This document shows positions 26,419 through 30,857 of a stretch of DNA of 64,000 bases, one piece after another. A program made the translations under genes and the position numbers. The stretch comes from Arthrobacter sp. MMS18-M83 (lineage in GTDB: Bacteria > Actinomycetota > Actinomycetes > Actinomycetales > Micrococcaceae). The notes below the pieces were generated by a model, which worked only from the letters and a program-made list of their open reading frames with translations, ran no database searches and had not been told where the DNA came from. The stretch spans positions 3,906,001 through 3,970,000 of the forward strand of contig NZ_CP113343.1 in the NCBI RefSeq assembly GCF_026683955.1, written 5' to 3'. The stretch's first letter is position 1. Each line of letters starts with the position of its first letter.

Positions 26419-27716
26419 GTGAACGCCGGGACCACTGACAATGCTCCGCAAACTGACGCAGCACAACAAGCGGCCTCGCTCTGGCGGGACCGGAACTTCA
26501 CTACCTTCTGGTCAGGCCAAGCCGTCAGCCAGCTGGGGCACAACTGGGGCAACCGGCGTTTCCAGTCCTCGCAGGGTCTTTGCTCGGGGCCAGCGAGTTC
26601 GAAGTTGGCGCGCTCAATGCTGCCAGCCTGGCGGCCTTCCTGCTGATCGGTTTGCCGGCCGGAGCGTGGGTAGACCGCTGGTTGAAACGCCGCACCATGA
26701 TTGTGGCGGACCTGGTCCGGACTGCGGCGATGGCGACCGTACCACTCCTCTGGTGGGCAGGCATCCTGCAGATCTGGCACTTGTACGCAGTAGCGGCCGT
26801 CGTCGGGGCCGCAACAGTCTTCTTCGACGTCTCCTACCATAGCTACGTGCCTGTGCTCGTGGATGCCGCGAACGTGCCACAGGCCAATTCCAAGTTGGAA
26901 GCCACCTCCCAGATCGCGCGCATCGGCGGACCTGCCGCAGGTGGCGCGCTGCTGACGGTGGTGTCCGCCCCGGTACTGTTCGTCGGGGAAGCAGCCGGCT
27001 ATCTCCTGTCCGCCATTTTCTTGTTCAGGACACGCGATGCGGAACGGCCCGTGCCGGCCAAGGACCGGCAGCCGCTAGCAAAGGAAATCAAGGAAGGCCT
27101 TGTCTTCGTGGTCAGGCATCCGTTGATCAGCAGAATTGCGGCCTGCACGGGCGGGGTGAACTTCTTCACTACGATCGCCTCTACTTTGATGCCCGTGCTC
27201 GTGCTGAGGGAACTGGAGCTAGGGCCACCGGGCATGGGCCTCATCATGGCGGTCGGGGCCGTGGGCGGACTGATCGGGGCCGTTGCCGCGCCCAGGCTCG
27301 CAGCTTGGATCGGTGAGGGGACCGTCATTCCCGCGGCGTCGATGGTGAACTCGCTTTTCCTCGTCTTGGTGCCGCTGTCGGTGCTGGCTCCCGAGCGATG
27401 GATCTCCTTGGTGATGCTCATCGTCTCCGAGTTCGGCTTCGCCTTCGGGGTGCTGGTGTACAACATCATGCAGCTGAGCATGAGGCAGCGGGTGTGTCCG
27501 CCCCGGCTCTTGGGGCGCATGAATGCTTCCATTCGCTTTGTGGTCTGGGGTGTCATGCCAATTGCCGCGCTTGCTTCAGGCCTGCTTGCCGAAAGGCTTG
27601 GGCTGGCCCCGACGCTCTGGATCGGCGTGGCCGGGAGCATGGTCTGTGTTGCACCAGCGTTGTTCTCGCCGCTTCGGGGAATGCGCAGGCTGCCTGACGG
27701 CGTGCGCGGCGCCTGA
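26419..27716 (+). pseudogene. MFS transporter, interrupted by a one-base frameshift
   Basis: Translation from GTG 26419 gives the MFS N-terminus LWRDRNFTTFWSGQAVSQLG and then leaves frame; the rest of the protein is in the -1 frame from about 26538 to 27716 (AFPVLAGSLLGASEFEVGAL, FLLIGLPAGAWVDRWLKRRT, and later membrane segments). Adding one G to the G4 run at 26535-26538 restores a normal transporter of about 432 residues. TTG 26580 would give 378 residues lacking the first membrane segment. It could be a true inactivation or a sequencing error. It pairs with the divergent regulator at 25852. Confidence 0.8.
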
Positions 27717-27723
27717 CCTCCTT

Positions 27724-27826
27724 GGGACATGCCCCGCCTTGGCTCGCAGCGCTGGACATAATGGCATCATGCGCATTCCTTGGCACAAGTGCAGCGCATG
27801 CTCGGCGCAGATGAGGGCACATGTCC
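27724..27826. repeat. Decayed CATG-palindrome cluster upstream of the DUF559 gene
   Basis: Contains GGGACATGCCC (27724-27734), GGACATAATGG (27754-27764), a CATG at 27768, GCGCATGCTC (27795-27804) and GGGCACATGTCC (27815-27826). Several are 29 bp apart (27728 to 27757; 27768 to 27797), the same period as the clearer array at 28762-28962. Confidence 0.55.
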
Positions 27827-27908
27827 AACGTTTGATTTCAAGATTGGACCGGAAGTTCTCCACATACCCAATGTTGGCGCTTCCGTGCCTCCGGTTTCGA
27901 GCGGAACG

Positions 27909-28727
27909 ATGGGGCGCATGGTGAACATCAGTGAAGTCATTTCAGCGTACGACGGCGTGGCGCGGGCTAAACATCTCGCTGCGGCTGGGGTGTCGCATTT
28001 CCAGCTGAAATCCGAGTTGGCGAGTGGACGGATTCTCCGCGTGGCCCGAGGGGTCTATGCGGTGCCCGGCGCCGATCCCGGCTTGCTCGCTATCCGGTCC
28101 CTTCCTGCGGAACCGGCCTGCATTTCCGCGGCCGAATTCTCGGGGTTGTGGGTTCTGGATGCCCCCCAATCTCCCCACGTGGCAGTCCCTCACAGCCGAA
28201 AGTACGAAGGTTTTGTCTGCCATCGATCCGCGGTCCCGCCTACCTTAATGGATTCAGTCATCCAGGCCTTGCGTTGCTTGCCGGATCTGGAGGGTCTGGT
28301 CGTTGCCGAATCTGCGGTGGTTCTTGGCAGGCTGCCGCTCACGGCCATCAGGATGAGGCTGAGTGGTCGGAATGATGCGCGGGAGCGGAGACTCGTGTCA
28401 CAAATCGTTCCGCAGTCACAGTCGATTATTGAGTGCATCGCCAGATACCTCCTGCGAGAAGCAGGCTTTCTCGTTGAATCACAGGTAAACATTCCGGGCA
28501 TGGGGCATCTGGATCTGATGGTGGACGGAAGGCTGGGGATTGAAACCGACGGAGCAGGTTTCCACATGGACAAGCCGAGCTTCGAGGAGGACCGCCGTCG
28601 GTGGAATATCACCACAAGGTTGGGTGTCCCGACCTTGGTTGTGAGCTATTCGATGTTGAAGAACCGGCCTCGAGAATTTGTGGCGATGGTCCGGGACACT
28701 CTGAGGTCTCTCGACCGAGCCGCGTGA
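27909..28727 (+). CDS. AbiEi-type winged-helix protein with DUF559/Vsr-like endonuclease domain
   Basis: 272 residues from ATG 27909 (ATG 27918 is also possible; the frame is open to 27780 but without conserved sequence). The N-terminus (ISAYDGVARAKHLAAAGVSH, LASGRILRVARGVYAVPGAD) resembles the AbiEi antitoxin winged helix. The C-terminus has a DUF559, very-short-patch-repair-like fold: GMGHLDLMVDGRLGIETDG, then FEEDRRRWNITTRLGVPTLV. The Asp and Glu of the nuclease core are visible. No partner AbiEii toxin is adjacent. Palindrome clusters flank it on both sides (27724-27826 and 28762-28962). Confidence 0.78.
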   Translation: MGRMVNISEVISAYDGVARAKHLAAAGVSHFQLKSELASGRILRVARGVYAVPGADPGLLAIRSLPAEPACISAAEFSGLWVLDAPQSPHVAVPHSRKYEGFVCHRSAVPPTLMDSVIQALRCLPDLEGLVVAESAVVLGRLPLTAIRMRLSGRNDARERRLVSQIVPQSQSIIECIARYLLREAGFLVESQVNIPGMGHLDLMVDGRLGIETDGAGFHMDKPSFEEDRRRWNITTRLGVPTLVVSYSMLKNRPREFVAMVRDTLRSLDRAA

Positions 28728-28761
28728 CCCCCCGGTGGGCTACCCTACGCCTGTGTCAGAA

Positions 28762-28962
28762 GGGACATGCCCATCGCTGCTCATCAGGAGTGGACATGTC
28801 CCTCGCTCGGGCCCGCGTTAACAAGGGACATGCCCGTAGCAGAGGGCTAGGAGTGGGCATGTTGGCATTATGTCCAGTGGTTCGAACCAGCAGGGGGCAT
28901 GTCCCATGGTTCGAACCAGCAGGGGGCATGTCCCGTGGGTCGGAGCGGGAGGGGGCATGCCC
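28762..28962. repeat. Array of seven GGGNCATGYCC palindromes, 29-bp period
   Basis: Cores: GGGACATGCCCA 28762, TGGACATGTCCC 28791, GGGACATGCCC 28825, TGGGCATGTTG 28854, GGGGCATGTCCC 28894, GGGGCATGTCCC 28923, GGGGCATGCCC 28952. Their CATG centres are spaced 29, 34, 29, 40, 29 and 29 bp. The last units form 29-bp direct repeats that also carry a second palindrome GGTTCGAACC (28879-28888 and 28908-28917). Any two cores can pair as a hairpin, for example 28762-28802. The array fills the gap between the DUF559 gene and the convergent gene at 28991. Confidence 0.85.
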
Positions 28963-28990
28963 GGTGAGCGGGGAAGACGGGGGAGCAGGC

Positions 28991-29233
28991 CTACTGCGGG
29001 GCGGGGCGGGGTTTACGGCGTGGAGGCGGAGGCGGGACTTCTTTTGCTGCGACTACAAGGGCCAGCGGGATCTCGACGTCGGACCGGCGGGTGCGGATGG
29101 TGCACGCACCATCGGTGACGGAGAGCAAGTAGCCGAGGGCATCGGTGAAGCCGTTGTCCACCCGGTATCGGACAACTACCCGTGTTCCGGATGCGGTGTT
29201 GAGCAGGAAATCCTGGGGCCGGGGCGAATTCAC
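28991..29233 (-). CDS. Small SH3-like protein (Rv0428c N-terminal-like domain)
   Basis: 80 residues. TASGTRVVVRYRVDNGFTDA, LGYLLSVTDGACTIRTRR and VEIPLALVVAAKEVPPPPPR follow the pattern of the SH3-like domain found at the N-terminus of Rv0428c-type acetyltransferases and as a stand-alone actinobacterial protein. The terminal proline/arginine-rich tail (PPPPPRRKPRP) is also typical. Function unknown. It is convergent with the DUF559 gene across the palindrome array. Confidence 0.68.
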   Translation of the reverse strand: MNSPRPQDFLLNTASGTRVVVRYRVDNGFTDALGYLLSVTDGACTIRTRRSDVEIPLALVVAAKEVPPPPPRRKPRPAPQ

Positions 29234-29369
29234 TAGTTCATAGTAGGACGCCCGGCTAGGTTGGTGAGTTCACGCTGGTGGATAATAGGGTCAGAATTCG
29301 ATGTACCGGCCACAGGGCCGGTGGTACTACCCGGAAACTGTCCGGGACAACTGTGGAGAGGCAAGGGAC

Positions 29370-29696
29370 GTGACCTACGTAATCGCGCAGCCGTGTGTGG
29401 ACGTCAAGGACAAGGCATGTATTGAAGAATGCCCTGTTGACTGCATCTACGAAGGCGAACGTTCCCTTTATATCCACCCGGATGAGTGCGTGGACTGCGG
29501 CGCTTGCGAACCCGTGTGCCCGGTGGAAGCGATCTACTACGAGGATGACACCCCGGAGGAATGGGCGGACTACTACAAGGCCAACGTCGAATTCTTCGAT
29601 GATCTCGGGTCCCCGGGTGGAGCTGCCAAGATTGGCAATACCGGCAAGGACCACCCGTTCATCGCCGCGCTGCCTCCTCAGAACCAAGACCACTAA
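29370..29696 (+). CDS. fdxA: 7Fe ferredoxin
   Basis: 108 residues from GTG 29370, preceded by GGAGAGG at 29355-29361; the frame is open further upstream but conserved sequence starts at MTYVIAQP. The cysteine pattern matches Azotobacter-type 7Fe ferredoxins: Cys9, Cys17 and Cys50 for the 3Fe-4S cluster, Cys21, Cys40, Cys43 and Cys46 for the 4Fe-4S cluster, and free Cys25. It is a low-potential cytosolic electron carrier. It lies 6 bp upstream of dapC, the same pair seen as fdxC-dapC in mycobacteria. Confidence 0.95.
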   Translation: MTYVIAQPCVDVKDKACIEECPVDCIYEGERSLYIHPDECVDCGACEPVCPVEAIYYEDDTPEEWADYYKANVEFFDDLGSPGGAAKIGNTGKDHPFIAALPPQNQDH

Positions 29697-29702
29697 GAAC
29701 GG

Positions 29703-30857
29703 TTGTTTCCTTTGATTTCTGCGGCCCCCGCCTTTGGCCTCAACCTGCCCGACTATCCTTGGGAAGCTATGGCGCCGTACGTGGCCAAGGCTGCAGAACA
29801 CCCGGGCGGGGTAGTCAATCTCTCGATCGGCACTCCCGTGGATCCCACGCCGGAGCTCGTTCGCGAGGCGCTCGCCGGGGCAGCCAATGCTCATGGGTAC
29901 CCGACTGTCCACGGCACGGAAGCTCTTCGCGAGGCTGTGTCCACCTGGTTCGCTACCCGACGTGGAGTCCCTGGGATCGACCCCCGGGACGTTTTGCCCA
30001 CAGTCGGCTCCAAGGAACTGGTGGCCTGGCTGCCGTTTCTGTTGGGGCTCAGCGCAGGCGACGTCGTTGTCCGTCCTACGGTGGCTTACCCGACGTACGA
30101 CATCGGCGCCCTGCTTGCAGGGGCCACGGCGATTGCTGCAGACAATCTGGACGAACTGGACGCCGCAACCCGTAGCCGGGTCCGGCTCATCTGGATCAAC
30201 TCCCCGGGCAACCCCACCGGCAGTGTTCGCGATGTCGAATCCCTCAGGCAGATCGTTGCCCAGGCCCGCGAGATCGGCGCTGTGGTGGCGTCTGACGAAT
30301 GCTATGCCGAACTCGGTTGGGGCGGATGGGATGCCCAGCGTGGCGGCGAAGCCGTGCCCAGCGTTCTTGATCCGCGTGTCACGGGTGGGTCAGACGGACT
30401 GTTGTGCGTCTACTCCCTCAGCAAGCAGTCGAACCTCGCCGGCTACCGGGCCGCCTTCGTGGCCGGAGACTCATCGATCGTGGCGAATCTGGTCAACAGC
30501 CGCAAGCACGCAGGCATGATCGTGCCTTACCCGGTCCAGGAAGCCATGCGCATCGCGCTCGGCGACGTCGGCCACGTGCTGGCCCAAAAGGATCTCTACC
30601 GCGGCCGCCGTGAACGCCTCCTGCCAGCTCTGCAGAACTTCGGACTGGAGATCCACGAGTCCAAAGCGGGCTTGTACTTGTGGTCCACCGCAGGGGAGGC
30701 GACGTGGGACACCGTGCGGCGTTTCGCTGACCTGGGCATCGTCGTCGGGCCCGGAGTGTTCTATGGAGACGCCGGCAACGGTTTCATCCGGGTGGCGCTC
30801 ACGGGCACCGATGAACGCATCGACGCCGCTGTGGAACGCTTGAACACTGCACGGTAA
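29703..30857 (+). CDS. dapC: Succinyldiaminopimelate transaminase
   Basis: PLP-dependent fold-type I aminotransferase, about 384 residues, of the actinobacterial DapC type. It converts N-succinyl-2-amino-6-ketopimelate to N-succinyl-LL-DAP. Visible are VNLSIGTPVDPTP, NSPGNPTGSV, and the Schiff-base region VYSLSKQSNLAGYR with the PLP lysine. TTG 29703 and TTG 29712 are both possible starts and neither has a strong Shine-Dalgarno sequence. dapD (35817) and dapE (36929) of the same pathway lie nearby. A terminator-like hairpin follows at 30892. Confidence 0.92.
   Translation: MFPLISAAPAFGLNLPDYPWEAMAPYVAKAAEHPGGVVNLSIGTPVDPTPELVREALAGAANAHGYPTVHGTEALREAVSTWFATRRGVPGIDPRDVLPTVGSKELVAWLPFLLGLSAGDVVVRPTVAYPTYDIGALLAGATAIAADNLDELDAATRSRVRLIWINSPGNPTGSVRDVESLRQIVAQAREIGAVVASDECYAELGWGGWDAQRGGEAVPSVLDPRVTGGSDGLLCVYSLSKQSNLAGYRAAFVAGDSSIVANLVNSRKHAGMIVPYPVQEAMRIALGDVGHVLAQKDLYRGRRERLLPALQNFGLEIHESKAGLYLWSTAGEATWDTVRRFADLGIVVGPGVFYGDAGNGFIRVALTGTDERIDAAVERLNTAR

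Follow-up and report, generated by a model that had tools for sequence, protein, structure and literature searches.

The AbiEi/DUF559-type gene within a 64,000-nucleotide stretch of the genome of Arthrobacter sp. MMS18-M83 (contig NZ_CP113343.1, positions 3,906,001 to 3,970,000; hereafter the window) is bracketed by palindromes that belong to a recurrent 81-bp hairpin unit. We lean toward the view that gene and units form a partnership resembling that of REPINs and RAYTs but built on an unrelated enzyme, in which an AbiEi-like protein fused to a nuclease would recognize the palindromes at the ends of hairpin units specific to each lineage. Such units appear to be kept beside the gene and, in two lineages, to be dispersed between other genes as well; binding, cutting, and mobility are all inferred from sequence.

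Downstream of the gene, seven palindromes whose starts are spaced by 29, 34, 29, 40, 29, and 29 bp (Table 1) reproduce the array described in the original prediction, the fourth being degenerate (TGGGCATGTTGG). The upstream copies of that prediction are likewise present, but "decayed" does not describe the first, at 27724, which is a perfect GGGACATGCCCC; it is followed by three weaker copies, the nearest with a CATA core. Throughout the window, GGGNCATGNCC has 11 matches against 1.45 expected, and none of 100 dinucleotide shuffles exceeds 5. The previously noted 29-bp spacing is real, but behind it stands an overlooked unit of 81 bp, whose end palindromes, P1 and P2, start 69 bp apart. Among the host-genome stretches read, namely the window and the surroundings of pattern matches, this start distance occurs in 13 pairs, the next commonest being 29 (7 pairs), and 18 gap-free units were found at a scan cut-off of 31/40. 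The unit is laid out as GGGRCATGYCCC, 17 nt, TGGACATA, 7 nt, TATGTCCA, 17 nt, and GGGGCATGTCCC, and its consensus (n = 18) starts with GGGACATGCCC and finishes with GGGGCATGTCC. One unit flanks the gene on each side (U1 upstream, U2 downstream), and an inverted repeat of 61 nt (79% complementary) pairs U1 with the downstream side. The 29-bp arrays resemble one arm of the unit, copied incompletely and in tandem.

Predicted RNA energies make most units a single hairpin closed by both ends. Among three units folded as DNA, that at 1932280 reaches a z score of −7.5 and U2 one of −3.4; U1, too decayed, folds no better than shuffles. Over the full stem of the 18 units, 70.7% of cells are paired, as opposed to 29–39% in slid controls. 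A known RNA family was considered for the arrays and rejected, the four matches at E ≤ 5 in window positions 26500–30500 (best 0.41) lying far below gathering scores. Genome-wide, GGGRCATGYCC yields 82 strand matches in the host versus 9 for the reversed pattern. Seventeen of the 18 units are intergenic, often right behind a stop codon, and convergent gene pairs hold five of the nine with both neighbors called, as judged by our own dicodon-score gene caller, which overlooked the AbiEi/DUF559 gene itself. The predicted bracketing holds on both sides of the gene, but arrays are not confined there. Isolated single palindromes are largely chance matches, 21 of 35 falling in predicted genes, and the view that all of them are elements was rejected.

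The association at the locus extends to orthologues. Among those at least 65% identical, palindromes stand on both sides in 42 of the 43 loci examined (40 plus three more; 7 of 50 orthologues were not fetched). Homologues about 50% identical that adjoin the same ferredoxin gene, fdxC, have arrays in none of 14 cases, and 13 homologues about 35% identical show at most two stray matches each. The proposal that arrays would cluster near DUF559/AbiEi paralogues failed: none of the four other such homologues in the host genome has an array within the stretches read, so that the link belongs to one orthologous group and not to the domain family. Nor need gene and arrays travel together, because the homologues about 50% identical occupy the fdxC locus without arrays; of the earlier suggestion of a mobile REP-like unit (REP, repetitive extragenic palindrome), the REP-like part fits best, and the cassette can be missing whole. 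The orientation of the two flanking units, called at 35 loci with a profile from the host genome alone, is inverted in 12, direct in 8, and not callable in 15; no general rule of inversion emerged.

Units and protein were then compared across the same 206 genomes of the genus, using the pattern ATGYCC-N19-GGRCATGYCC, of which one unit can yield two hits; the reversed control pattern matched once, in G221. All 50 orthologue-bearing genomes have units (6–102 hits), two orthologues (G095 and G141) matching over residues 60–268 only, and all 27 genomes with only a 45–54% homologue have 0 or 1 hits; both cut-offs, 65% identity and 6 hits, were chosen once the breaks in the data were known (from 66 to 54% in identity and from 6 to 2 in hits). 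At least six hits were found in six of the 128 genomes without a protein match at E 1e-50 (G111, G127, G187, G188, G191, and G200), among them G187 (68% complete) and G188 (83%), neither of which gave a match to dapC, a gene searched in 80 genomes. Among 395 genomes of the family, none from another genus exceeds two hits. Judged by these counts, units and orthologous gene co-occur near-strictly, and this, with the flanking of 42 of 43 loci, strongly supports a link between gene and arrays, as originally suggested; in the proposed search of relatives, arrays do track the orthologous gene, although units also lie between other genes.

Loci with and without the gene were also compared, as the original prediction called for. 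At the fdxC locus the gene is reduced to a fragment in G191 (residues 1–58; 21 hits), entirely absent from G200, G127, and G018 (16, 8, and 2 hits), missing from G111, which keeps palindromes alone (11 hits), and incomplete in G067 (20 hits). By comparison, hits number 40–57 in nine genomes of the G191 and G200 clade with the gene intact, and 59–87 in four sisters of G018; units are fewer in most genomes that have lost or damaged the gene, with exceptions. The whole array–gene–array cassette is missing from G200 and G127, from the first palindrome to at most about 20 bp past the last, leaving a join that carries GGGACA or GGGACAT, and the two losses may be one shared event. At six orthologous loci elsewhere, compared in up to seven genomes, units are single, tandem double, or shrunk to one palindrome or none, and gene-less G200 has units reduced in this way at two of the loci (sites 2 and 3). 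In place of the CATG units of G000, L324 1320–1371 (G200) holds a long inverted repeat of another kind (GACTCGCATT..TGTCGTTTT and complement); G012 and G191 carry a similar sequence at the same site, possibly another hairpin family. In G070, G074, G025, and G127, dapC has an in-frame TGA or is split in two, through assembly error or as a broken gene.

The pattern recurs with other palindromes. Homologues from another genus, two of three assigned to Arthrobacter echini, are bracketed by arrays of a TCCCA-N18-TGGGAWCGA hairpin, which is dispersed in G282, G377, G426, and G543 (71, 53, 47, and 27 hits) and gives 0–3 hits in a further 34 genomes of the same genus and none in six others; in G543, a genome 83% complete, the gene was not found at the cut-off used. 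The A. echini lineage, by this comparison, repeats the arrangement with a different, also dispersed, hairpin. Among 80 named homologue loci, repeated 9-mers lie above the 99th percentile of the controls (456 windows) in 20 of 80 flanks upstream and 19 of 76 downstream, and the two flanks have a median of 12 9-mers in common versus 5 in controls (76 versus 820 pairs); the sharing is also significant for the 47 pairs outside the CATG group. The control windows of both comparisons are mostly coding. Ten motifs, picked after inspecting flanks, place one palindrome family on both sides in 41 of the 80 loci, including TGTTCGAACA in A. agilis, GTCCCGGGAC in Tersicoccus, and AGCTGGGGA in Sinomonas. 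The protein tree requires one change each for the A. echini, Sinomonas, and GGCGCC groups, and all ten motifs are lacking from a clade of 13 loci whose records bear the name Pseudarthrobacter or Arthrobacter. A second repeat, in eight copies (CAGAACCCC/GGGGTTCTG), accompanies the A. echini-type hairpins in the downstream flank at L165, and nine copies of GGTGACCTC lie on one side of the gene, downstream, at Sinomonas L233. The A. echini and A. agilis lineages (L140, L144, L148, and L173) have no fdxC within the stretches read, and the locus of the gene therefore differs from that in the genus of the window.

The protein is predicted to combine a DNA-binding winged helix with a Vsr-like nuclease, an assignment made in the original prediction and upheld by family matches, homologue scans, and folds. 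In Pfam, the window protein itself falls below threshold both for a winged helix of the AbiEi_4 type (24.9 bits against a cut-off of 25) and for the MTES_1575 REase (26.4 bits against 38.2), and the profile support for its own AbiEi-type identity is weak; at E ≤ 0.01, MTES_1575 is found in all 14 homologues scanned and AbiEi_4 in 13, and profiles and fold together back that identity. Three proteins searched against NCBIfam had no match. A structural model of a homologue joins an AbiEi-like half, the first 163 residues of the protein matching the 6y8q fold across 162 aligned residues, to a half with a predicted Vsr/EDxHD homing-endonuclease-like fold, of which the sequence similarity to 3r3p is not significant (E 0.42). 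Six residues (D198, E208, D210, H215, D224, and R227, numbered as in L139) are the same in all 14 aligned proteins and are candidates for the predicted cleavage; the conserved acidic and histidine residues of this half we take to resemble the EDxHD/Vsr motif. With a ratio of nonsynonymous to synonymous substitution rates (dN/dS) of about 0.1 (0.07–0.12), the gene is under purifying selection, and the nuclease part has the lowest or tied value in 9 of 10 pairs.

Among known systems, the closest likeness is to REPINs and their RAYT partners: GI REPINs have palindromic ends 71 bp apart (PMC3116915), compared with 69 here, in extragenic hairpins with two ends at a fixed distance, and RAYT genes are single-copy, resident, and flanked by their own repeats (PMC2817692, PMC8049555), which are fewer where the gene is missing (PMC8049555), as is mostly the case here. 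Unlike in those systems, the unit consensus has no GTAG head, inverted flanking units are callable in only 12 of 35 loci, and the protein is AbiEi-like with a Vsr/EDxHD-like nuclease. The Y1 (HUH) tyrosine transposase profile PF01797, which finds members in 5 of the 14 control genomes, has no match in the host genome, so that a hidden RAYT was rejected. With the transposase absent and the enzyme unrelated, this is not a RAYT system. The AbiE type IV toxin–antitoxin system shares the AbiEi-type N-terminal half, and AbiEi itself binds to inverted repeats within its promoter (PMC3985639), but the window protein is fused to a nuclease, and by Pfam no AbiEii-like toxin occurs among five neighboring proteins, the adjacent genes encoding a ferredoxin and a major facilitator superfamily (MFS) transporter. 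The modeled nuclease half shares its fold with I-Bth0305I (an EDxHD homing endonuclease) and Vsr, although the sequence similarity is not significant and the window gene is associated with short-repeat arrays. Miniature inverted-repeat transposable elements (MITEs) and CGTC-tagged REPs are also short, noncoding, palindromic, and intergenic, the latter without associated transposase genes (PMC3733652); the units here, in contrast, are tied to one resident gene. A partial literature search, covering few subscription journals, found nothing linking DUF559 with repetitive extragenic palindromic repeats, and the DUF559 papers on palindromes and repeats or on transposition looked off topic; the further papers listed showed no such system.

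Under the partnership that we favor, the product of the resident single-copy gene would join a DNA-binding, AbiEi-like part to a nuclease resembling Vsr and homing endonucleases, and its winged helix would bind the palindromes of the units. The nuclease may nick or cut these palindromes when they are extruded as hairpins, repair would then copy or multiply the units at a low rate, and without the gene the units would decay to single palindromes or scars.

A protein acting mainly as a transcriptional regulator, with local arrays as its own operators, dispersed units as those of a regulon, and the nuclease fold as a relic or binding aid, seems unlikely to us. Such a role would suit the promoter binding of AbiEi (PMC3985639), the location of some arrays directly upstream of the gene, and the fact that lineage-specific operators likewise co-diversify with regulators; yet the units are 81-bp hairpins, tandem and variable in number, arrays also lie downstream, and dispersed units often follow stop codons, with five of nine callable gaps convergent, while the six nuclease residues are invariant and dN/dS is lowest or tied in that part. 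We consider it improbable that the units are a MITE or REP family moved by another, unlinked enzyme, the gene merely sitting in a unit-rich region. Units do occur elsewhere in the genome, 29-bp partial copies resemble slippage, and our search was aimed at Y1 transposases only; the host genome nonetheless has no Y1 transposase, flanking on both sides separates 42 of 43 orthologues from 0 of 14 near homologues, and the same arrangement recurs with different palindromes in several lineages. Marginally more improbable still is host protection, whereby the nuclease processes hairpins or junctions of palindromic arrays that slippage expands and only nuclease-bearing genomes tolerate, with nothing actively moved: slippage alone would not carry units into the many separate gaps that they occupy in two lineages, and genomes without the gene retain some units.

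Several observations weigh against the partnership itself. None of the six sites yielded a clean insertion into a place shown to have been empty; the differences there are copy-number change, loss, or rearrangement. Site 1 still has its unit in gene-less G200 and G191, and site 6 has lost units in G012, which bears the gene. The gene looks intact in G225, G196, and G005, which have few units (7, 6, and 13 hits), and damaged-gene G067 outnumbers its intact relative G005. G094 has palindromes on one side only, and other genes could co-vary with the units. Five tree-corrected pairs differing in the gene are concordant for units in three to four and opposite in none (two to three at a cut-off of 25 hits), which gives p = 0.125 at best and cannot reach significance; the tree rests on two adjacent genes, a quick search, and 60 of the 206 genomes, picked by hand, and excludes G127 for its 7% contamination. 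Five shuffle tests on the stem were reached in 4, 154, 18, 81, and 4 of 500, a modest support. In 39 of the 80 named homologue loci no motif of the ten appears at both flanks, and on the protein tree the CATG labels need four changes and TCTAGA two. Tersicoccus G270 has arrays beside the gene and zero units in a 400-kb sample away from it; flanking arrays therefore do not imply dispersal.

Table 1. Features of the locus (window positions). A 17-nt inverted repeat (88% complementary) also relates 27678–27694, at the end of the MFS gene, to 27763–27779, inside U1.
Feature	Position	Strand	Basis or remark
MFS transporter gene, left neighbor	26580..27716	+	Stops 7 bp short of U1
U1, upstream 81-bp unit (P1 27724–27735; inner arms near 27753 and 27768; decayed P2 27793–27804)	27724..27804	+ (relative to U2 only)	Motif score 33/40; orientation profile
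Extra single palindrome GGCACATGTCCA	27816..27827	no strand	Motif score 10/12
AbiEi-like winged-helix and Vsr/EDxHD-like (MTES_1575/DUF559) nuclease gene, 269 aa (predicted)	27918..28727	+	Families, homologue model, folds, dN/dS
Palindrome GGGACATGCCCA	28762..28773	no strand	Motif scan
Palindrome TGGACATGTCCC	28791..28802	no strand	Motif scan; 29 bp past palindrome at 28762
U2, downstream 81-bp unit (P1 28825; inner arms 28854 and 28869; P2 28894)	28825..28905	-	Motif score 37/40; single-stranded DNA fold z −3.4
Palindrome GGGGCATGTCCC, 29-bp partial duplicate	28923..28934	no strand	Motif scan
Palindrome GGGGCATGCCCG	28952..28963	no strand	Motif scan; segment absent from G200 and G127 ends at most about 20 bp past it
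Ferredoxin gene fdxC	29373..29693	+	Anchors locus in relatives

We further raise, tentatively and as a prospect just short of even, that these hairpins represent a separate class of mobile repeats, multiplied through cut-and-repair by a dedicated AbiEi-EDxHD/Vsr-type nuclease, independent of the REPINs of tyrosine transposases, and endowed with a palindrome of their own in each protein lineage. For the CGTC-tagged REPs, which have no associated transposase gene (PMC3733652), a conserved nuclease with its own hairpin would offer a concrete candidate kind of partner. The arrangement of one resident gene with a population of hairpins suggests that such systems arose more than once with different chemistry, and its lineages may provide natural protein–target pairs for studying how winged helices switch palindrome.
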